NCBI GenBank assembly: GCA_017620815.1
Contig: JAGAUI010000002.1
Span: 1-48,135 of the forward strand
From: Flavobacteriales bacterium
Lineage (GTDB): Bacteria; Bacteroidota; Bacteroidia; Flavobacteriales; UBA1820
Direction: 5' to 3'
Length of the DNA stretch: 48,135 nucleotides
The translations under genes were made by a program, and so were the position numbers. Positions 27,841 through 40,175 of this stretch are shown here, one piece after another; position 1 is the stretch's first letter, and each line of letters starts with the position of its first letter. The notes below the pieces were generated by a model that worked only from the letters and a program-made list of their open reading frames with translations, searched no databases and was not told where the DNA came from.

Positions 27841-28689
27841 CTAAAAATCATCTGGTAGTTCAGCCAAATCCACTGCGGTAAATACAGGACCGTCTTTACA
27901 TACATACATTTTACCTACGTTACAACGTCCGCACTTACCTACCCCACATTTCATACGGTTTTCCAGTGTGGTATAGATATTCTCTTTGGCAAATCCCAAT
28001 TTTTCAAGCACAGGGAACGTGAATTTTATCATCACAGGAGGCCCACATACTATGGCAATGGTATTTTCGGCATTTATAGGGCTCTCACCTACCACCGTAG
28101 GCACAAATCCTACTTTGCCTTTCCATTCAGGAGTCTCTCCACCCGGGTCAACGGTAGTGATAAGGGTTACGTCTTCGCGGTCTTCCCATTCTTTGAGTTC
28201 GTTTTTATAGACTAGGTCGGCAACGGTTTTGGCACCATATACTATGGTTACATCGCCATATTTTTCACGTTCGTCCAGAGCTGTCCATATCACGCTACGC
28301 ATAGGAGGTAGAGCTATACCACCTGCTATAAACAGCAAGTTTTTACCCTTCCACTCTTCCATAGGGAAATAGTTACCAAATGGCCCACGGAATCCCATAG
28401 TATCTCCCTCTTCCAGTTTTGAGAGTGAAGAGGTAACTCGTCCAGCCTGACGGAATGTACATTCCACATATCCCTTGCGGGTAGAAGGAGAAGCTATACA
28501 GAATGTACATTCTCCATCTCCTATGGCAGAATATTCGGCAAACTGTCCTGCACGGAATGAGAATGATTTTTCGTCTTCTTCGTTTTTGAATTTAAGACGT
28601 AGAGTTTTTACTCCGGGAGCTTCTACCGTTACTTTTTCCACCTGCATCATATATGGCAGGTATATGTTTTTGTCTTTACAATTACACAT
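27841..28689 (-). CDS. FAD/NAD(P)H-binding oxidoreductase subunit (FlxA/AsrB type)
   Basis: A ferredoxin-reductase-like chain. The FAD domain (about 10-105) has RAGQFAEYS, the nucleotide-binding domain (about 110-225) has LLFIAGGIALPPMRS and IVCGPPVM, and the C-terminal [2Fe-2S] site uses Cys248, 253, 256 and 264. It resembles the NAD(P)H-side subunit of sulfite reductase (AsrB) and sulfhydrogenase. In the Flx (Flox) module it brings NADH electrons to the Hdr part. It starts 5 nt after the upstream subunit and is the last gene of the seven-gene operon. Confidence 0.88.
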   Translation of the reverse strand: MCNCKDKNIYLPYMMQVEKVTVEAPGVKTLRLKFKNEEDEKSFSFRAGQFAEYSAIGDGECTFCIASPSTRKGYVECTFRQAGRVTSSLSKLEEGDTMGFRGPFGNYFPMEEWKGKNLLFIAGGIALPPMRSVIWTALDEREKYGDVTIVYGAKTVADLVYKNELKEWEDREDVTLITTVDPGGETPEWKGKVGFVPTVVGESPINAENTIAIVCGPPVMIKFTFPVLEKLGFAKENIYTTLENRMKCGVGKCGRCNVGKMYVCKDGPVFTAVDLAELPDDF

Positions 28690-28694
28690 AGTTT

Positions 28695-29705
28695 CTACTG
28701 TATTTTATCTATGGAAGAAAGATGTTCTTTAATATTCATATCCACCGGACAAGCACGAGAGCAACGTCCACAACCTGTACATCCTAACGAATCCTGACGC
28801 TGTGGTATGTATGAGAATTTGTGCATAAGACGTTGACGCCAACGCGAAGCCTGTGTAGAACGTGGATTATGTCCAGAAGTGTGTAGCGTGAACTGTGCAA
28901 ATCCACATGAATCCCAGCAACGCAATCTCTCGCCACAGCTTCCTTTTGGATTTTCCTGTATGTCAAAACAAGAACATGTAGGACACACATAAGCACAAGC
29001 ACCACAACCTAGACATCTTTCAGACTGCTCTTTCCATACCTGTGAATCAAACATCCCGTGCATTTTCTCCTTCAATTTCTCTACGTCAAACACTCTGGGT
29101 ACATCGGCTACATATTTATCCTTATCCCCTGCTGTGTATTCTGTAAATAGATTTTGAGAGAGTGCAACTAGAGATTTACCTTTTTCTGTCATTACCTCCG
29201 CTATCGCACCATCGGCAGTGTATGTGAGTAGTATATCACTACCACGAGTATCACCCGCTCCTCCTCCTACCGATGTACAGAAGCAGTATTCATCGGCTGT
29301 AGCACATGAAGTGGCAACTATTGCAGTACGCTCACGACGAGTGTTATACATCACGTCTTTATAATCCCAGTTAAATACAGCATCTAGTGGAAATAACGAT
29401 GCCGCATCACAAGGACGTACATGCCACAACACCTGTGAAGGAACACTTTCTGGGTCAAAGTCTTGAACTTCTATATCACGACCATTTTTCTTATATGAAA
29501 ACAAACGTTCTGTACGAGGGAAAAGTACTTCTTTGGCACTGCGAGTAGTCTGTATATAGTCTGTGGCTACCTGCTCATAACTTTCCACACGAGCAAATTC
29601 CACTACTTTGTCTTTTCTTACAGGAGCCACCACGTGGTCATGAGCGGCTTTTATAGCATTCCACCACGATGGGATATCGCTCTTTTTTATATATAGTGTA
29701 TCCAT
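28695..29705 (-). CDS. Iron-sulfur subunit with two [4Fe-4S] sites (FlxB/AsrA type)
   Basis: The 336-residue protein is related to AsrA and the beta subunit of sulfhydrogenases. The N-terminal 220 residues form the family-specific domain (VLWHVRPCDAASL, ATSCATADEYCFCTS). The C-terminal part binds two clusters: the first begins at C231 (CLGCGACAYVCP) and the second at C309 (CTGCGRCSRACP). Between them, CWDSC and the RWRQRLMHKF block match AsrA. It would carry electrons between the FAD subunit and the next Fe-S protein. It starts 4 nt after the preceding stop. The letter assignment follows the Desulfovibrio Flx set and is tentative. Confidence 0.87.
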   Translation of the reverse strand: MDTLYIKKSDIPSWWNAIKAAHDHVVAPVRKDKVVEFARVESYEQVATDYIQTTRSAKEVLFPRTERLFSYKKNGRDIEVQDFDPESVPSQVLWHVRPCDAASLFPLDAVFNWDYKDVMYNTRRERTAIVATSCATADEYCFCTSVGGGAGDTRGSDILLTYTADGAIAEVMTEKGKSLVALSQNLFTEYTAGDKDKYVADVPRVFDVEKLKEKMHGMFDSQVWKEQSERCLGCGACAYVCPTCSCFDIQENPKGSCGERLRCWDSCGFAQFTLHTSGHNPRSTQASRWRQRLMHKFSYIPQRQDSLGCTGCGRCSRACPVDMNIKEHLSSIDKIQ

Positions 29706-29709
29706 ATTT

Positions 29710-30510
29710 CTATTTTATGAAGTTTTCTTTATCGTCTGGTTTGAAAGTATTGAGTACAGCACCTTCGCGAGGAGCCAATCCTGCTGTGATACCAAAGTTT
29801 TCTTCTATGTTATCCAGTATCTTGCGGTTGAGCAGGTGTACAGGAATGCCTTCTGGACAAGCAGCACCACAAGCACCACAGCCCACACAACGTCCAGCCA
29901 AGTGCATCACTCGGTTTATCTGCCATTCCATATTGGAAAGAGGGGACGCCCAAGGGTCTATCCACTGTGGACGGTTGTTATCTACTATACAACGTGTGCA
30001 GTAACACATAGGACAAGCCGCACGACAAGCATAGCACTTGATACATTTTGAGAATTGTGCAGCCCACCACGCCCAACGCTCTTCCGATGTCATAGCATCA
30101 AGCATTTCTATCACACGACGGTCATCTTCGCTAGGTGTAGAAGGTATCTCCTCTATATATGGGTCTATATCCCAAGGCGAACGGAATATCATCAGTTCGT
30201 CGTTTGGGGAGAGGTGTATAATCTTGTATTGGGATTGTCCTATCTGGTTTTCTCGTGCCAAATATGCTATACTACGCAATGCCGAAATAGTACATACTAT
30301 GGCTACTTTTTCGTCTTTTACTACTTCTTTTTTTGTGAGATAGACGGCTAGATTTGGCTGATAATCGTTTGAGAATATCATCTGTTCTACATCGCTGGCA
30401 CTGCGACAGAAAAATGGACGAGGGCCTCGTGTACCCTGTTTATATCCTATGGCTAGTGTTATCTCTCCACTCTGGAACAGTTCTATGAGTTTTGCTTTAA
30501 GTTTATCCAT
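29710..30510 (-). CDS. [4Fe-4S] ferredoxin-like subunit (FlxC type)
   Basis: The 266 residues have a family-specific N-terminal domain (to about 150). A ferredoxin domain follows with two cysteine clusters: C156, 159, 162 and 166 with extra cysteines at 169, 171 and 174, and C208, 211, 214 and 218. The first cluster region, CPMCYCTRC, is unusually cysteine-rich. The sequence resembles the Fe-S subunits between MvhD and AsrA-like proteins in Hdr-Flx clusters. The start overlaps the mvhD end by 8 nt, implying translational coupling. There is no membrane segment. Confidence 0.85.
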   Translation of the reverse strand: MDKLKAKLIELFQSGEITLAIGYKQGTRGPRPFFCRSASDVEQMIFSNDYQPNLAVYLTKKEVVKDEKVAIVCTISALRSIAYLARENQIGQSQYKIIHLSPNDELMIFRSPWDIDPYIEEIPSTPSEDDRRVIEMLDAMTSEERWAWWAAQFSKCIKCYACRAACPMCYCTRCIVDNNRPQWIDPWASPLSNMEWQINRVMHLAGRCVGCGACGAACPEGIPVHLLNRKILDNIEENFGITAGLAPREGAVLNTFKPDDKENFIK

Positions 30511-30958
30511 TGTACATACCCTCCTTTAAGTATTCTGCAGCTTTTTTATAATTCTCATAAGGGCCTAACTCTCTTACGGTCTCTACGTGTTCGTTTACTA
30601 ACTGTGCCCATTTGGCTCCTTCACCAGCACTTACCCAAGAGAAGCGTATGCGTCTTATATCTATACCCAGAAAATCCATCAGTCCTCTTAATACCATCCA
30701 ACGACGACGAGCATGGAAGTTACCAGCTGTATAATGGCAGTCATTGGGATGACAACCAGAAACTATAATGCCGTCTGCTCCTTCGGCAAACGCCTTGAGA
30801 AGTAACATAAAGTCTATGCGTCCCGTACAAGGGAAACGCACTACGCGTACGTTGGACGCATATTTCATACGACTAGTACCCGTAAGGTCTGCTCCTGCAT
30901 AAGTACACCAGTTGCAGACAAAAGCTATTATCTTTGGTTCAAATTCTTTTTTCTCCAT
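30503..30958 (-). CDS. mvhD: MvhD-type [2Fe-2S] subunit of the Hdr complex
   Basis: The 151 residues have the MvhD pattern: C15 and C18 (FVCNWCTYAG), C44 (RFPCTGR), C69 and C74 (SGCHPNDCHY). In methanogens MvhD passes electrons from hydrogenase or formate dehydrogenase to HdrA; in Hdr-Flx complexes it joins the Flx module (as FlxD) to HdrA. It sits between hdrA and the Flx genes, as expected for the linker. No hydrogenase genes are near, so NADH via the FAD subunit is the likely electron source. Confidence 0.92.
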   Translation of the reverse strand: MEKKEFEPKIIAFVCNWCTYAGADLTGTSRMKYASNVRVVRFPCTGRIDFMLLLKAFAEGADGIIVSGCHPNDCHYTAGNFHARRRWMVLRGLMDFLGIDIRRIRFSWVSAGEGAKWAQLVNEHVETVRELGPYENYKKAAEYLKEGMYNG

Positions 30959-30981
30959 ATCTATGTATATTTATGCAGTTA

Positions 30982-32982
30982 CTATTCATGAAGTGCAGCC
31001 ATGACACTGGAATACATTTCTTCGTTTGAGAAGCCTTGCAGGTCTATACTCTTGCTACGGCAGAATGCCACACAAGTACCACAGCCTTGACACAATCCAG
31101 GGTTAATAGAAGCAACCGTCTTGATGACGTTACCTGCTCTATCCTTGATGTTTTCCATCGTGATGGCACTATAAGGACATATATCCACACACAGACTACA
31201 ACCCACACAGGTAGAGAATACTGGCGGAGGCATACGGTTTACCACAGCTACCACAGGCTCACGTAAAAGTTGGTCTTTGGAGAAGAGTGCTGCCACTTTC
31301 ACTGCTGCACCCGAAGCTGCTGCAACGGTATCTGGAATATCCTTTGGACTCTGACATGCTCCTGCTAGGAATATACCAGCGGTATTGGTCTCTACGGGTT
31401 TAAGTTTTGGGTGAGCCTCTGCAAAGAAATTGTATTTGTCATAAGAGATATGCAATTTCTGTGCTAGGTCTTCGGCTCCTTTATTGGCTACACCAGCAGT
31501 AGCTAGAACGACCATATCGGCTTCAATCTCTACTTGTTCTCCACCTAGAAGAGTATCTACACCTTTAACTATGAGTTTTCCATCTCTCTCATACACACGA
31601 GCCACACGACCTCTTATGTAGTTTACTCCGTCTTCTTCTATCGCACGACGTACAAACTCGTCATAGTTCTTACCTCCTGCACGTATGTCCATATAGAACA
31701 CATAAGATTCTCCATCGTGGACTTTGTGCTGGTATAACATAGCGTGTTTGGCTGTGTACATACAGCATATCTTTGAGCAATAAGGGCGTCCTTTGGCTGC
31801 ATCACGAGAACCTGCACAAGCTATAAATACTATCTTTTTGGGGACAGTACCGTCTGATGGACGGCGTATTTCTCCCATAGTAGGCCCCGATGCCGATGCC
31901 AAACGTTCAAACTGAAGACCTGTTATAACGTCTTTATAACGGCCATATCCATATTCAGAAAATTCACTGGTAGGTGCCACGTCAAATCCTGTACATACTA
32001 CCACTGCTCCTACTTCCTCTGTAATTATTTCATCTGGAGCATCAAATGTTATAGCACCTGTAGGACATACCTTTTCACACAATTTACATTTACCAGTCTT
32101 ATAGTAAACACAGTGTTCTTTATCTATGGTAGGTTTGTTTGGCACGCTTTGTGGGGAAGGGACATAAATAGCTGTACGCAATCCCATAAGAGCGTTAAAT
32201 TCACTAGGTACTTTTTTGGTAGGACATTTGGTAGTACACATACCGCAACCTGTACATTTTTCCAAATCCACGCTACGTGCTTTAAGACGTATGCGAGCCG
32301 TAAAGTTTCCTATAAAACCTTCCAGCCCTTCGACTTCGGCATATGTATAAAGTGTGATATTTGGGTGCTGAGCCACTTCCACCATACGAGGAGTAAGGAT
32401 ACACTGTGAACAGTCCAGCGTAGGGAATGTTTCCGATAGCTGAGCCATATGTCCTCCTATGGATGGTTCTTTTTCTACCAATATCACTTTGTGTCCTGCA
32501 TTGGCTATATCAAGTGCTGCCTGAATACCAGCTATACCTCCACCTATAACCAATGCTTTTTTGGTTACAGGGACTTTGATAGTAGATAGAGGAAGGTCTT
32601 TTTTCACCTTCTCCACCTGCATACGCACTAGGTCTAGAGCTTTCTGTGTAGTTGCTTCGCCTTTTTCATGCACCCAAGAGCAGTGTTCACGTATATTGGC
32701 TATCTCACACATATAAGGGTTAAGACAAGCCTCTGCACAAGCTGCACGGAATGTACTCTCGTGCATGCGAGGAGAACAAGCAGCTACTACTACTCCATCC
32801 AGACCCTTTTCCTTTATGGCATTTTTAATGATGGTCTGACCGGGGTCACTACACATATATTTATAGTCTGTAGATACCTCTACGCCGGGTATTTTGGCGG
32901 CCTCTTGTGCTACTTTTTCACAATCTACCGTACCGCCTATGTTCTCGCCACAATGGCATACAAATACTCCTATTTTTGACAT
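30982..32982 (-). CDS. hdrA: Heterodisulfide reductase subunit A, electron-bifurcating flavoprotein
   Basis: The 666 residues are full length. The N-terminal cysteine-rich domain has CHCGENIGG and KYMCSDPGQ. The FAD fold has GGGIAG at 147-152 with VEKEPSIGGHMAQLSETFPT. [4Fe-4S] sites are at C243/246/249/253 and C291/299/302/306, and two C-terminal ferredoxin sites are at C592-602 and C631-641. In methanogens the HdrA FAD splits electron pairs between ferredoxin and heterodisulfide. The coding start overlaps the hdrB end by 13 nt. All cofactor residues are retained, so the subunit looks functional. Its partners are hdrB, hdrC and mvhD. Confidence 0.96.
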   Translation of the reverse strand: MSKIGVFVCHCGENIGGTVDCEKVAQEAAKIPGVEVSTDYKYMCSDPGQTIIKNAIKEKGLDGVVVAACSPRMHESTFRAACAEACLNPYMCEIANIREHCSWVHEKGEATTQKALDLVRMQVEKVKKDLPLSTIKVPVTKKALVIGGGIAGIQAALDIANAGHKVILVEKEPSIGGHMAQLSETFPTLDCSQCILTPRMVEVAQHPNITLYTYAEVEGLEGFIGNFTARIRLKARSVDLEKCTGCGMCTTKCPTKKVPSEFNALMGLRTAIYVPSPQSVPNKPTIDKEHCVYYKTGKCKLCEKVCPTGAITFDAPDEIITEEVGAVVVCTGFDVAPTSEFSEYGYGRYKDVITGLQFERLASASGPTMGEIRRPSDGTVPKKIVFIACAGSRDAAKGRPYCSKICCMYTAKHAMLYQHKVHDGESYVFYMDIRAGGKNYDEFVRRAIEEDGVNYIRGRVARVYERDGKLIVKGVDTLLGGEQVEIEADMVVLATAGVANKGAEDLAQKLHISYDKYNFFAEAHPKLKPVETNTAGIFLAGACQSPKDIPDTVAAASGAAVKVAALFSKDQLLREPVVAVVNRMPPPVFSTCVGCSLCVDICPYSAITMENIKDRAGNVIKTVASINPGLCQGCGTCVAFCRSKSIDLQGFSNEEMYSSVMAALHE

Positions 32983-33830
32983 ATCGCTTCTTCTTTATAA
33001 TTAACAAAATGACGACCTACGCCTACTTCGTCGGGAGTAAGACCACAAGCCATACCTAGTAGTTGAGTTATATAAAGTACCGGTGCAGCAGATGGGGACT
33101 CCATATTTTTATTTATATATGGACGACGCATATCCAGATTTGAATGACACATAGGACAATCCACTATGATAGCTTTGGCACCACGATGAGTAGCGTCTTC
33201 CAGTACTGCTGCCGATAATTTTCCTACCGTTTCGGTAGCAGCTATTGACATACCTCCGCCACAGCATTCGGTCTTAAATGCCCAGTCTATAGGTGTAGCC
33301 CCTGCCAATTTTACCAGATTATCCAGTGACTGTGGGTCTTCTACTCTATCTCCTTTAATTACTCCCGTAGGGCGTACCAAGAGACATCCATAATAACAAG
33401 CCACACGAGCCTTGATAGGGTGAGTCATTTTTTCCTTGATGGCATCTATGGCATATTTTTCTAGCCACTCCATCACCGAAAGTATCTTCACACCTCCTAC
33501 TTCTGCACCTATAATATCTTCTATCTTTTTACATAATGTATCATCGGCCTTGAGGTGATGCTGTGCCGTTTTAAGACGTGAAAAACAAGCCGCACAAGGC
33601 ACCAATAACTCTTTATATCCTTGAGATGCTGCCAATGACAATATACGTGCCGGTAAAGCTAGCGACAATTCTTTACTTACCGCATGAGCCGAAGAAGCTC
33701 CACAACAGTTCCAGTCTTTAATCTCTTCCAGTGGCAGGTTTAATACTCTTGCCAATGCAACCACAGACTCTCCATATTCTCTAGAGGAGCCTTTGAGGGA
33801 ACAACCGGGGTATAATCCTACTTTTTCCAT
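32970..33830 (-). CDS. hdrB: Heterodisulfide reductase subunit B, CCG-domain protein
   Basis: The 286 residues have two CCG domains: C10-X31-C42C43-X35-C79-XX-C82, and C149-X39-C189C190-X34-C225-XX-C228. In methanogen HdrB these hold the non-cubane [4Fe-4S] clusters that cleave the disulfide. The disulfide here is unlikely to be CoM-S-S-CoB; in sulfate reducers DsrC trisulfide has been proposed. The gene begins 3 nt after hdrC ends and overlaps hdrA by 13 nt. No membrane segments are present, so the complex is soluble. Confidence 0.95.
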   Translation of the reverse strand: MEKVGLYPGCSLKGSSREYGESVVALARVLNLPLEEIKDWNCCGASSAHAVSKELSLALPARILSLAASQGYKELLVPCAACFSRLKTAQHHLKADDTLCKKIEDIIGAEVGGVKILSVMEWLEKYAIDAIKEKMTHPIKARVACYYGCLLVRPTGVIKGDRVEDPQSLDNLVKLAGATPIDWAFKTECCGGGMSIAATETVGKLSAAVLEDATHRGAKAIIVDCPMCHSNLDMRRPYINKNMESPSAAPVLYITQLLGMACGLTPDEVGVGRHFVNYKEEAICQK

Positions 33831-33833
33831 ATC

Positions 33834-34412
33834 TTATTTTCCTTTTTCTGTACCTACAGTACGGTCAAATATCTTTTTAACAGATGCTTTATCCTTTATA
33901 CTTTCTGGCAGGATAGAAAGTTTTCCTTTGGAGAGCATAGAAGGGACTAGGCAGACGTCTTGCATGAGGTCCATAGTACGTAATTTGTATTCGGCTTCCA
34001 TACCTACTTCCCATAGACGTCCTGTGTTTTTTATCTGTGAGAGGAATGAACGGTGGAATGCTATGATTTTACTAGCGTCCTTGTGGGCTATACCTCTCTT
34101 TAAGGACTCTACCCTGAGCATATCCATTACATGTGGTATATCTATGCTCTGAGGGCAACGTTCATAGCAGTTTTCACAGTTTAAGCATACCCATATACTA
34201 CGGGAACGTAATACTTTCTCATAGTTTTCTTGGCTTCCTGTCTGCAATAGACGCATGATATATGATGGAGGGTAATCCATACGTTCTGCTTGCACACAGC
34301 CAGCGGTACATTTCCCGCACTGGTAACAATGCATCACATCTACTCCAGATGTCGATTTTACATGTGTGGCAATAGATTTTTTTTCTGACATATGTGGTAA
34401 ATTTTTAATCAA
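33834..34412 (-). CDS. hdrC: Heterodisulfide reductase subunit C
   Basis: A small soluble Fe-S protein that relays electrons from HdrA to HdrB. Counting from the first possible Met, [4Fe-4S] site one is C29/32/35/39 (CYQCGKCTAGC) and site two is C76/79/82/86 (CLNCENCYERCP). The rest is the helical HdrC tail. Two starts are possible: 34412, or the Met at 34391 (MSEKKSIATHV). The promoter element at 34426-34433 leaves only about 8 nt of leader for the first, so 34391 is the likelier start. It is the first gene of the seven-gene operon. Confidence 0.93.
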   Translation of the reverse strand: MIKNLPHMSEKKSIATHVKSTSGVDVMHCYQCGKCTAGCVQAERMDYPPSYIMRLLQTGSQENYEKVLRSRSIWVCLNCENCYERCPQSIDIPHVMDMLRVESLKRGIAHKDASKIIAFHRSFLSQIKNTGRLWEVGMEAEYKLRTMDLMQDVCLVPSMLSKGKLSILPESIKDKASVKKIFDRTVGTEKGK

Positions 34413-34876: not shown

Positions 34877-34906
34877 AAAAAAAACGCCCCTTTCAAGGGG
34901 CGTTTT
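34877..34906 (-). terminator. Terminator of the pta-AIPR-ackA unit
   Basis: A 12-bp stem AAAACGCCCCTT/AAGGGGCGTTTT with a 2-nt loop continues into a T run on the minus strand, 15 nt after the ackA stop. Confidence 0.9.
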
Positions 34907-34921
34907 AACAAGTGTATCATT

Positions 34922-36127
34922 TTACTCTTTAATGAGGTTGTATGTCTGTGTGGCTATTTCGAGTTCTTCGTTGGTAGGGATGACGTATATCTTAACACGA
35001 GAATCATCTGCTTGTATTTCAAATGGTTCTGGGTTGCGTCCCAGGTCTTTTTCCAAATCCAATTTTATACCCATGAATTCCAAATCACTACAAGCACCCA
35101 TACGTATAAACGGAGCATTTTCGCCTACACCTGCCGTAAATACCAACGCATCTACACCACCCATAGCTGCAGCATAAGAAGCTATAGTCTGTCGTATGCG
35201 GTAGCAGTACATCTCGTGGACAAATTTGGCATGTTCATCACCTTCGTGGTATGCACTTTCCACATCACGCATATCTGATGAGCCAAAAAGAGCTTTAAGA
35301 CCAGACTCTTTATTGAGAATATGTGCTACTTCTTCGGCACTATAGCCTAGTTGTTGAATCATATGCAAGAGGACAGACGGGTCTATATCTCCGCTACGGG
35401 TTCCCATTATAAGTCCATTAAGAGGCCCAAGCCCCATAGTAGTATCTACACATTTGCCGTCCTTGACAGCTGCCATAGAACAACCATTGCCCAGATGTAT
35501 GGTTATAATACGGGTGCCTTCTGCCTTCCCTCCCAATAGCTCTATAGCACGTTCCGATACATATTTATGGCTAGTGCCGTGGAAACCGTATTTGCGTATT
35601 CCGTGTTCTTTATAGAATTTTTCTGGGATAGCATATAGGTATGCTTTGGCGGGCATCGTCTGATGGAATGCTGTGTCAAATACAGCCACATGGCGAGCCG
35701 CAGGGAATACTTCACGAGCTACCAGATAGCCTTGGTATGTGGGAGGATTGTGAAGAGGAGCCAATGGATATAATTCCTTGATTTTTTCTTCTACTTCGGG
35801 GGTGATAAAACAAGTATCTGTTATAAATTCTCCCCCGTGTACCATACGATGTCCTACGGCAGGAATTTCATCGGGGGATGATACTACGCCATATTCTGGA
35901 GACATAAGCAGTTCTGCCACACGTTTAAGACCTACCGTGTGATTTGGGATAGTCATTACCTCCACTATTTTCTTCATTTCCCCGTCACGCATATATTTAT
36001 GTGTGATAGAGCCCTCGTCCAACCCTATACGGTCCACAAGTCCTGCCGATATAGGCTGACGTGTATCCATATCTATGAGTTGGTATTTGATGGAGGAACT
36101 TCCTGAATTAAGCACCAATATTTTCAC
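34922..36127 (-). CDS. ackA: Acetate kinase
   Basis: AckA converts acetyl phosphate and ADP to acetate and ATP, the energy-yielding end of acetate fermentation. It is an actin-like (ASKHA) fold with LVLNSGSSSIKYQL (catalytic Asn7), GHRMVHGGE, VFDTAFHQTMP, YGFHGTSHKYVS, HLGNGCSMAAV, TRSGDIDPSV and FTAGVGENAPF. The 401 residues are full length. The start is a GTG at 36125-36127, 13 nt after the stop of the AIPR gene. It would normally follow pta directly; here the AIPR gene lies between them. Confidence 0.97.
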   Translation of the reverse strand: MKILVLNSGSSSIKYQLIDMDTRQPISAGLVDRIGLDEGSITHKYMRDGEMKKIVEVMTIPNHTVGLKRVAELLMSPEYGVVSSPDEIPAVGHRMVHGGEFITDTCFITPEVEEKIKELYPLAPLHNPPTYQGYLVAREVFPAARHVAVFDTAFHQTMPAKAYLYAIPEKFYKEHGIRKYGFHGTSHKYVSERAIELLGGKAEGTRIITIHLGNGCSMAAVKDGKCVDTTMGLGPLNGLIMGTRSGDIDPSVLLHMIQQLGYSAEEVAHILNKESGLKALFGSSDMRDVESAYHEGDEHAKFVHEMYCYRIRQTIASYAAAMGGVDALVFTAGVGENAPFIRMGACSDLEFMGIKLDLEKDLGRNPEPFEIQADDSRVKIYVIPTNEELEIATQTYNLIKE

Positions 36128-36140
36128 GTTAAATAGAGTT

Positions 36141-38018
36141 TTATGTTGTTTTTACTAATTTTTCAAAAGTTTCTGCACATTTATTATCTGTACAATTTAT
36201 CTCATTTATACACTCTTGTAACAAGCCATAATCAACAGCTTTTTTGATCATTGAATTGTATTCTAATTTATATCTATTATAATACCATCTACGATATGTA
36301 GAACTAATTTTGCTAAGATATGTATATACTTTTTCGTATTCCATATCAGATAACTTTGACATTTCGTCAAAGAAAGTATTTATAGAATCTGCAGTTTTTA
36401 TTCCTTTATTATCTAATAGAAATCCTATTGTGTTAAACATGTAATAAGGTACAGGAAAAGATACTTCTCCATTGTTTTCTTTTTTTTCTTTTTCAGCTCT
36501 ATTATACAACATATACATTCGTATCATTGTATCAGTTGTTATACTATGTATGTTTTTAGTTACTTTTTTGTAAACATCTGAACTTTTTTCAAAAATTTTA
36601 TTTTTCTTTGTATATGCATCGTGAGCATTTTTTATAAGAGCCATATATATCAATATTAATTTTTCAATTGATATAATAATATCTTTTTTTATTGTAGTTG
36701 AAGGGATTAATTCTTTTGCTTTTTTTATTAAATCTGATTCTTCAGTTTTTGATAAAGATTTAAAACTATGTTTATCACTTTTTATAACTTCTAGTAAAAA
36801 ACCTCTATTATAAAAAGATTCTTTTAATGTCTTAAAATATTCTTGATTCTTTTCACAATCAGCAAGTTTTATACTATTCTGAGTGTTTGTTGCTTCAACA
36901 ATTTTTTTATTTAAAATACGGGTTTCTTGATTTTCTTTTGAAAAACGCAACAGCTTAACTAGAACAAAACAATCCTTATAATCATCTATATTCTTGTTTT
37001 TTAAAGCCGTTTTTATTGAATTTACTGTTTGGCAACCATTAATAATTTGAGGTTTTACCAGTTTAATTTCTTTTATAGATCCAGCAGAATGTTTCTTATC
37101 TATTCCTAACCCTTTTTCTTTAATGTCTTCACAAGAAATGGTTATACCATTATTATATAAAAAGAAATTATTTCTTTCTGTATCAGAATTTAAGGTTTGT
37201 TCTATTTTTTTATTTATAGTATTACTGCCTAAATATTCTCTTATATTATCTTCAAAAATAGGATATTTCTTTAGTTCAGCTTCTTTTATTAAAGAATATA
37301 TCTCACAAACATTTAAACATGCATAAATGGCACCGTCATCTTTTCCTACTATCTTTGAAATCCCCCCAAATTTTAAATAATTATTTTCAGGGATCTTCCA
37401 AATATGTTCAAAATGTAAATCTTTACCAAAAGACTCTCCATAATAAAGATCATGAATGTTTTTTAATGTAAAAATTCTTGCTGTTATGTTTTTTGATATG
37501 TTTTCGTTATTGAAATTTTCTACAGCTATTTGTATTTGTTCCGACAACTCATCATCTTCTGTTGTATATAAATCAAGATATATTTTCCATTCACATTCAC
37601 TATCAGAAGTTTGTTTGTTTATATTTTCTACAAACTCGTTATAACATTGTTGTAAATCTTCATTCTTATATGATCCTTTGTTTAAATTAGATAAAGGCTG
37701 TTGTAAAAATTTAGTTACTTTTTCTATTGTTAATTTACTAGTACTTGAATAATATTTATTTTGGATAATATATAATACTTTTTCTATACTATTTTTATCA
37801 TTATGACATACGAAACAGTCTATTTCATTATCATAGGAAGCATCTGTTATTAATGATGTTATAATATCCTCATCTACATTATAGATATTATCTAATATCC
37901 AATGATTGAAAACATAATCATCTTCTTGATACCTACTAAGTGGAAATGATTTTTTTATATGTTCAATATCTTCCGCTATTTGTGCTCTAAAAGAGCCTGA
38001 ATTATAATTTATTTCCAT
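36141..38018 (-). CDS. AIPR-family (abortive infection) protein with nuclease-like N-terminus
   Basis: The 625 residues show the AIPR core: FFLYNNGIT (285-293), PQIINGCQTVNS (323-334) and ATNTQNSI (376-383). The N-terminal region resembles a restriction-endonuclease fold: D67 in EID, then Q86-N-K88 after a strand, i.e. a D...QxK pattern. AIPR proteins are linked to phage defence, often beside modification enzymes; none is found here. Composition is far more AT-rich than both neighbours (sample 60-nt lines at 36541 and 36781 hold 11 and 10 G/C, against 29 at 38941 in pta), indicating acquisition. It starts 15 nt after pta and has no promoter or terminator of its own. Confidence 0.85.
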   Translation of the reverse strand: MEINYNSGSFRAQIAEDIEHIKKSFPLSRYQEDDYVFNHWILDNIYNVDEDIITSLITDASYDNEIDCFVCHNDKNSIEKVLYIIQNKYYSSTSKLTIEKVTKFLQQPLSNLNKGSYKNEDLQQCYNEFVENINKQTSDSECEWKIYLDLYTTEDDELSEQIQIAVENFNNENISKNITARIFTLKNIHDLYYGESFGKDLHFEHIWKIPENNYLKFGGISKIVGKDDGAIYACLNVCEIYSLIKEAELKKYPIFEDNIREYLGSNTINKKIEQTLNSDTERNNFFLYNNGITISCEDIKEKGLGIDKKHSAGSIKEIKLVKPQIINGCQTVNSIKTALKNKNIDDYKDCFVLVKLLRFSKENQETRILNKKIVEATNTQNSIKLADCEKNQEYFKTLKESFYNRGFLLEVIKSDKHSFKSLSKTEESDLIKKAKELIPSTTIKKDIIISIEKLILIYMALIKNAHDAYTKKNKIFEKSSDVYKKVTKNIHSITTDTMIRMYMLYNRAEKEKKENNGEVSFPVPYYMFNTIGFLLDNKGIKTADSINTFFDEMSKLSDMEYEKVYTYLSKISSTYRRWYYNRYKLEYNSMIKKAVDYGLLQECINEINCTDNKCAETFEKLVKTT

Positions 38019-38033
38019 AATATTTAGATTATG

Positions 38034-40127
38034 TTATTTATTTTGTGCTTGTATGGCTGTGATGATGATAGTGTTGAGTATATCATCTACTGTACAACCG
38101 CGTGAAAGGTCGTTGACAGGTTTATTAAGTCCTTGCAACATAGGCCCTATAGCTAGAGCTCCTGTCTCACGTTGAACAGCTTTATAGGTATTGTTACCAG
38201 TGTTAAGGTCTGGGAATATAAGTACCGATGCCTGTCCCGCTACTTGTGAGTCTGGCATCTTGCTCTTACCTACCTTCATATCTACCGCAGCATCATACTG
38301 GATAGGGCCTTCCAGTTTAAGGTCTGGACGTTTCTCGCGGGCTATGGCTGTCGCTTCGCGGACTATTTCCACGTCTGCTCCCTTACCCGATGTGCCAGAC
38401 GAATAAGACAATAGAGCTACTTTTGGGTCTATGCCGAATGCCTGTGCTGTTTCTGCCGAAGAGATAGCTATCTCGGCTAATTGTTGAGCATTAGGATTTG
38501 GATTCACAGCACAGTCACCAAATATAGCTACACGGTCTGGAAGACACATGAAGAACACCGAAGACACGGTGCTTACGCCCGGTTTGGTCTTGATTATCTG
38601 GAATGAGGGCAGTATAGTGTGTTGGGTAGTATGTGCAGCACCAGACACCATACCATCTGCTAGGCCTTTATATATCATCATCGTTCCAAAGTATGAAACA
38701 TCTGCCATAGTATCACGAGCGGCTTCTTCTGTTATACCTTTTGCTTTACGCATCTGGTAGTATGTCTGTACAAAATCCTCATAGTATTCGCTATTGACAG
38801 GGTCTATGATATTGATTTTGGACAAGTCAAGCTCTACTCCCGCACGTGCAGCAGACTCTTTTACCATCTCTGGTGTTCCCAGTATAGTAAGGTCAACTAT
38901 ATCCATATTAAGAAGACGTGCAGCTGCTGTAACTATTCTCTCGTCTTTGCCTTCTGGGAGGACAATATGACGACGAGCCATACGAGCCTTTTTATACAGG
39001 TTATAGAGGAACATCTTTGGAGTCATGCCCTCTGGTGTAGAAGTGATGATTTTCTTTTCTAGAGATTCTGTATCTATCGCTTCCTGGAATGCACGTATCA
39101 TGGTCTCTATCTTTTCTATGCTAGAAGGATAGATACGGGCATTGACATTGTTTATAGCCACCGCTGTATCAAACGTATTATCTGCTACCGAAAGTATAGG
39201 CAGGTTAAGTGCCGAACTTTCAAAAAGGCGTATTATGCTCTTGTCTGGCAATAGTCCTGCTGTGAGTACTATACCTGCTATATTGGGATATAGTGTAGAA
39301 GAGTTGGCCAGTACCGAAGCCATAAGGATGTCGCTGCGGTCACCGGGAACGACAACTAGTGTATTTGGAGACAAGTCTTTGAGGAAGTTTGATGCCTGCA
39401 TAGCACCCACCGATGTGTGTTCCACTATGTTTCCTATATAATCCTGTCCCATAAGCACGCGTGCCCCCAGCGAATGACGTATCTCCTCTATCGTAGGACA
39501 GTCCAGACGAGGATTTGAAGGGATAGCAGCTATGAGAACATCGGGGTTGTTTATGGTTATAGATAGGTCTTCGCGTATGTTTTTAATAGATTCGGTAGTT
39601 TTATTGGCAACTACAGCTATTACGTCTATGTCTTTTTCCTTAAATGATTTATAGATGATATTGAGGTTTGAGAGCAATTCTTCTTCATTCAAATCATTCT
39701 GTGCCTCTACTAGCACAGCTGGCAGACCTAGGTTATGTGCTATTTCTAGATTTATTTCAAACTCCACGATAGAGCCTTCTGGGTAATAGTCTGAACCATC
39801 TACCAGTAAGAAGTCAAATTTCTCTTCCAATGCCTTATAGTGGCTTATGATACGGCTTATAATCATATCTCGTTTGCCTTGATTTATAAGGCGTTCTACT
39901 TGGCTACGGGTATAGACAAATGCGTCATCATACTGCATGTCTATATTGAAATAAGAGAGGAATGTCTCTATGTGTTCGTCTCTTTTACCCACACCAGCAT
40001 CAGATATCACAGGGCGGAAATACCCCACTTTTTTTGTCATACCTGTGAGCATATTCATAAGCCCCAGCGATATGGAAGTCTTACCACTACGTGCGTGTGA
40101 CGTAGCTACAAATACAGCTTTATTCAT
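38034..40127 (-). CDS. pta: Phosphate acetyltransferase, long form
   Basis: Pta converts acetyl-CoA and phosphate to acetyl phosphate for AckA. The 697 residues carry an N-terminal P-loop BioD-like domain (FVATSHARSGKTSISLGL), a DRTGG domain (about 210-320) and the C-terminal catalytic PTA domain (about 370-690, with SYSSGTSGKGADVE and GPIQYDAAVD). The length matches the long regulated Pta type of E. coli (714). It is the first gene of the pta-AIPR-ackA unit and all domains are intact. Confidence 0.97.
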   Translation of the reverse strand: MNKAVFVATSHARSGKTSISLGLMNMLTGMTKKVGYFRPVISDAGVGKRDEHIETFLSYFNIDMQYDDAFVYTRSQVERLINQGKRDMIISRIISHYKALEEKFDFLLVDGSDYYPEGSIVEFEINLEIAHNLGLPAVLVEAQNDLNEEELLSNLNIIYKSFKEKDIDVIAVVANKTTESIKNIREDLSITINNPDVLIAAIPSNPRLDCPTIEEIRHSLGARVLMGQDYIGNIVEHTSVGAMQASNFLKDLSPNTLVVVPGDRSDILMASVLANSSTLYPNIAGIVLTAGLLPDKSIIRLFESSALNLPILSVADNTFDTAVAINNVNARIYPSSIEKIETMIRAFQEAIDTESLEKKIITSTPEGMTPKMFLYNLYKKARMARRHIVLPEGKDERIVTAAARLLNMDIVDLTILGTPEMVKESAARAGVELDLSKINIIDPVNSEYYEDFVQTYYQMRKAKGITEEAARDTMADVSYFGTMMIYKGLADGMVSGAAHTTQHTILPSFQIIKTKPGVSTVSSVFFMCLPDRVAIFGDCAVNPNPNAQQLAEIAISSAETAQAFGIDPKVALLSYSSGTSGKGADVEIVREATAIAREKRPDLKLEGPIQYDAAVDMKVGKSKMPDSQVAGQASVLIFPDLNTGNNTYKAVQRETGALAIGPMLQGLNKPVNDLSRGCTVDDILNTIIITAIQAQNK

Positions 40128-40167: not shown

Positions 40168-40175
40168 CAAAGTTA
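40168..40175 (-). promoter_or_regulatory. -7 promoter element for pta
   Basis: TAACTTTG on the minus strand matches TAnnTTTG, 40 nt upstream of the pta ATG. It is also the only promoter seen for the AIPR gene and ackA. Confidence 0.5.

Follow-up and report, generated by a model that had tools for sequence, protein, structure and literature searches.

The window analysed here is a whole stretch of 48,135 nucleotides from a Flavobacteriales bacterium (GenBank assembly GCA_017620815.1, contig JAGAUI010000002.1). It makes up an entire contig (C23) of a 1.73 Mb genome in 42 contigs that is estimated to be 99.5% complete, with a contamination estimate of 0.01%. On the minus strand of the window a gene of the AIPR/AbiU family lies between pta and ackA, in the order pta, AIPR, ackA:

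38034-40127, minus strand: pta, phosphate acetyltransferase, 697 aa, intact (PRK05632 equivalog, 908 bits)
38019-38033: left gap between pta and the AIPR gene, 15 nt
36141-38018, minus strand: AIPR/AbiU-family gene, 625 aa, ATG start, no internal stop (from the ORF list)
36128-36140: right gap between the AIPR gene and ackA, 13 nt
34922-36127, minus strand: ackA, acetate kinase, 401 aa, intact, GTG start (TIGR00016, 474 bits)

The ORF list thus bears out the placement and the two short gaps given in the sequence-only reading of this DNA, and the flanking genes, which that reading had called intact, are full-length with strong family matches. The AIPR gene was found in a single copy in its own genome. 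No R-M genes were identified within the window, no other defence genes adjoin the AIPR gene (the window genes scanned are housekeeping genes), and a Z1 gene sought in the genome was not found. Fe-S/flavin genes follow one another on the 3′ side of ackA (27841-34412, minus strand), with a CCG cysteine-rich domain, FAD plus multiple 4Fe-4S, and an NAD/FAD reductase; together they resemble a heterodisulfide-reductase-type cluster, and their order is the same in the congener G002 (L028).

We compared the locus across the order using one genome per species. A pta gene passing a strict cut-off was present in 37 of 246 genomes, 36 of them other than that of the window (three congeners and 33 further genomes of the order). 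In all 36, ackA follows pta on the same strand at a distance of 4-201 nt (median 58), consistent with the earlier statement that the two genes are normally neighbours. Pta and ackA are adjacent and the site is empty in each of the three congeners, whose pta proteins are 94, 85 and 76% identical to that of the window, and among the 37 genomes an insert between the two genes occurs in the window genome only. The AIPR gene is clearly a one-off insertion between otherwise neighbouring pta and ackA. A reading in which it is an old resident of the locus, since lost in the relatives, for which the sequence-only reading asked that the gene recur at this place throughout the order, is contradicted by this comparison, as none of the 36 genomes, congeners included, has it in the same place. 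(One genome of the order carries two tandem ackA-like copies directly 3′ of pta; G137:C1:783427-785980.)

The two ends of the insert could be compared with the uninterrupted pta-ackA spacer of G002, which is 46 nt long:

38019-38033, minus strand: left junction, 15 nt directly after the pta stop codon
36132-36149, minus strand: right junction, 18 nt (ACAACATAAAACTCTATT), an exact match to the last part of the G002 spacer

The 18 nt at the right junction have been kept identical although pta and ackA differ from those of G002 by about 15% of bases. Moreover, the AIPR frame ends within them: its last two codons and stop (ACA ACA TAA) are host spacer, so that the AIPR gene takes its stop codon from the recipient's own spacer. 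At the left junction there is no similarity to the G002 spacer past the stop codon, and the remainder of that spacer is missing or replaced. That the empty site has this 18-nt core in common favours insertion over many independent losses, a further argument against an old resident. The junctions also bear on whether an assembly artefact has joined an AT-rich fragment of another organism into the contig, as the divergent composition of the gene and the 42-contig assembly might suggest. We regard this as very improbable, given two precise spacer junctions, intact genes on both sides, ancestral spacer kept at the right junction and the contamination estimate given above. The AIPR gene alone makes up the content of the insert, in which no integrase or transposase was found and at which no obvious terminal inverted repeat was seen. 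Both junctions carry the 7 nt AACATAA as a direct repeat; we rejected it as a target-site duplication, since 55% of shuffles produce a match at least as long.

The sequence-only reading had also described the AIPR gene as AT-rich, and a check of its GC deviation agrees. Its GC content is 24.2%, compared with 43-44% in pta and ackA, and the drop coincides with the start and end of the gene. In a sample of 855 ORFs, each 150 aa or longer, from 1.14 Mb (66%) of its own genome, it has the lowest GC (z -5.9; mean 41.7, sd 3.0) as well as the lowest GC3 (14.2%; z -4.6). The AIPR gene is foreign to its genome. Being the most AT-rich gene sampled sits badly with long residence too; the presence of the gene, and nothing more, speaks for an old resident, which we consider barely credible and the least probable of the readings weighed here. 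With the window protein as query, no close relative, and hence no candidate donor, was found in genome and viral contig collections. (The other main low-GC region of the sample is a long AT-rich cluster at L072:4392-19684, G000 contig C2, 20-40 kb, which, judged from first residues, looks like surface-polysaccharide synthesis. The same genome has further AT-rich genes: that at L052:12265-14310, G000 contig C22, is defence-like and encodes a GmrSD N-terminal (DUF262) domain, and that at L076:1174-2241, G000 contig C8, of 355 aa, encodes a type I restriction HsdR N-terminal domain.)

The assignment to the AIPR family, made earlier from motifs, now stands by profile as well. Residues 255-548 match the Pfam profile PF10592 (E 4.9e-36; 125.4 bits against a cut-off of 25), residues 33-580 match the PADLOC AbiU profile PDLC02357 (E 1.5e-29; profile positions 21-515 of 537), and the PHROG match is to phrog_1841, a phage-moron family described as 'Abi alpha-like abortive infection mechanism'. 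All of the family-invariant residues are kept (N258, R260, N269, F285, N290, G291, N327, G328, Q330, N378 and Q380). In an alignment of 44 sequences, the window protein included, D63, D67, Q86 and K88 never vary, and neither do 14 positions farther along the protein. Profile comparison of residues 57-107 with Mrr_cat proteins puts the D-x3-D and QxK motifs in register, with a match probability of 61% (E 8e-5) for the N-terminal profile and of 34% (E 4e-4, same place) for the full-length profile; pairing of the AIPR core with the Mrr profile came to under 1%. This conserved active-site signature supports an Mrr-like PD-(D/E)XK nuclease at the N terminus, and hence the earlier prediction of a nuclease. 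AIPR proteins have been stated to begin with a HEPN domain (PMC3506569), a statement that the Mrr-like signature does not fit, and Pfam gave no HEPN match at the N terminus of the window protein. Note that the protein is very divergent: its identity to the homologues compared reaches 36% at most in the core and is about 25% along its length, so that homology is a weak guide to its function.

An AlphaFold model built from the 44 sequences reached a mean pLDDT of 64, which is moderate (residues 230-370 mostly 60-93), compared with a poor 43 for an earlier model from 5 sequences. It places strands at residues 68-73 and 80-85, ahead of the QxK. A PDB fold search with the 44-sequence model gave no significant match, its top entries including a ParB-N domain and SspE, and a search of viral models matched an AIPR protein, a DUF262 protein (E 3e-4) and DNA-sulfur-modification proteins (E 2e-3 and 6e-3). 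As a lead only, the AIPR core may be a ParB/DUF262/DndB-like module. DndB has been stated to be kin of AIPR (PMC3506569); we found no backing for such kinship in profile comparison, in which every part of the AIPR protein stayed under 1% against the DndB profile with no significant match, and the fold matches are weak.

AIPR genes are present in 50 of 395 sampled genomes of the phylum, and homologues are carried on phages and plasmids, among them a copy in a Salmonella P2-like phage that bears the depositor's note 'prevents superinfection'. They have been described as common in R-M operons (PMC3506569, PMC2292703). In 20 neighbourhoods fetched from other Bacteroidota (in one of which, L189, the blast used missed the AIPR gene itself), neither pta nor ackA was found near AIPR. 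The gene adjoins helicase, ResIII, ATPase or methylase genes in L191, L194, L201 and L202, and several other loci are without such neighbours; thus, a solo AIPR gene is not unusual, whereas the pta-ackA site is. In a protein tree the window protein sits on a long branch with a Priestia plasmid AIPR as sister, a placement that is not reliable. At L196:5645-7306 an AIPR gene lies 72 nt upstream of, and on one strand with, apparent ABC-transporter genes; it may likewise have landed next to housekeeping genes.

Two signals flank the three-gene run:

40168-40175, minus strand: -7 box TAACTTTG, fitting the Bacteroidota -7 promoter box
34881-34906, minus strand: strong intrinsic terminator after ackA, 11-pair stem and T run, conserved in G002

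The Bacteroidota -7 promoter consensus is TAnnTTTG, and each of the four species of the genus has the TAACTTTG box about 40 nt ahead of pta; no clear -33 element is visible before pta. A scan found no terminators between pta, AIPR and ackA, in line with the sequence-only reading. That reading had also denied the AIPR gene a promoter of its own, a claim that holds at the level of the scan: the stretch has about as many sigma-70-like matches as chance predicts (24 against 25.2 expected), and a full Bacteroidota-type promoter (TTG plus TAnnTTTG) did not turn up in the region. Since the -7 box before pta and the terminator after ackA are conserved and nothing terminates between them, a pta-AIPR-ackA transcript is likely, and with it the proposed reading of the AIPR gene from the pta promoter.

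For the sequence-only reading, such an arrangement would tie the nuclease to acetate energy metabolism. On this account the AIPR nuclease would work together with pta-ackA, its expression or activity following acetate flux or acetyl phosphate in a form of energy-coupled defence, and the tight in-operon placement (gaps of 13-15 nt) with a promoter and terminator in common speaks for it. However, a metabolic tie predicts a recurring arrangement, and none was found: one genome has it, the 36 other genomes of the order are without it, and none of the 20 other AIPR loci is near pta or ackA, so that promoter capture is the more economical explanation. Nor did Pfam reveal a metabolite-binding domain in the AIPR protein. 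We therefore find the tie unsupported and hold a functional partnership to be improbable; we would give the same slim chance to the idea that pta-ackA expression or acetyl phosphate, shifting during phage takeover, sets the activity of the nuclease. A search of the literature for acetate kinase genes linked to defence brought up, judging by titles and abstracts, nothing bearing on the matter. A metabolic link, if true, would be new; it has no support here.

We think it probable that this is a solo foreign defence nuclease of AIPR/AbiU type, inserted in pta-ackA and read through from the operon promoter. The gene would have entered the pta-ackA spacer in one lineage, after the split from the sister species, leaving pta and ackA intact. 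Most likely it then became the middle cistron of a unit that starts at the pta promoter and stops at the terminator after ackA, both of them conserved, and its place in the acetate operon would be promoter capture without a metabolic link. The protein would join an N-terminal Mrr-like PD-(D/E)XK nuclease to an AIPR core, perhaps resembling a ParB/DUF262/DndB-type domain, that may sense nucleic acid or nucleotide, and would most likely act on its own in phage restriction or abortive infection; we infer this role from the family, its carriage on phages and plasmids, and the conserved nuclease residues. A foreign gene inserted in a single genome could also be a passive landing, an inert phage or plasmid gene that has not yet been lost and has no defence role in its host, the more so as that role is a family-based deduction. 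We judge this unlikely, though it deserves more weight than the other alternatives: the full-length frame is open, every family-invariant residue is kept and there are no pseudogene features. The locus shows cleanly how one defence-type gene can enter a core metabolic operon with no mobile element in sight. Solo defence genes, as it illustrates, need not lie in islands, and neighbourhood-based searches would miss those that lie elsewhere.

Compared with known systems, the window gene resembles the AIPR family (PF10592, which includes lactococcal AbiU1) in its AIPR core, in its nearly full-length match to the AbiU profile and in size (625 aa here, mostly 550-690 in homologues). It differs in standing alone between metabolic genes, outside an R-M operon or defence island, and in a core at most 36% identical to those of the homologues compared. 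In the Lactococcus AbiU system the AbiU2 gene is adjacent, whereas beside the window AIPR gene AbiU2 is absent and the neighbours are pta and ackA. With Mrr-type PD-(D/E)XK restriction nucleases it has in common the D-x3-D ... QxK signature, in register by profile comparison over about 50 columns, the rest of the protein being AIPR. The likeness to GmrSD/DUF262, SspE and DndB-type proteins is a weak fold resemblance of a model of moderate confidence and, for DndB, comes without a significant sequence-profile match. Finally, the locus is like other cases of acquired genes joining old operons in that a foreign gene lies inside, on the same strand and with its neighbours intact; here, in contrast, the newcomer is a predicted defence nuclease and its host is the core pair pta-ackA.
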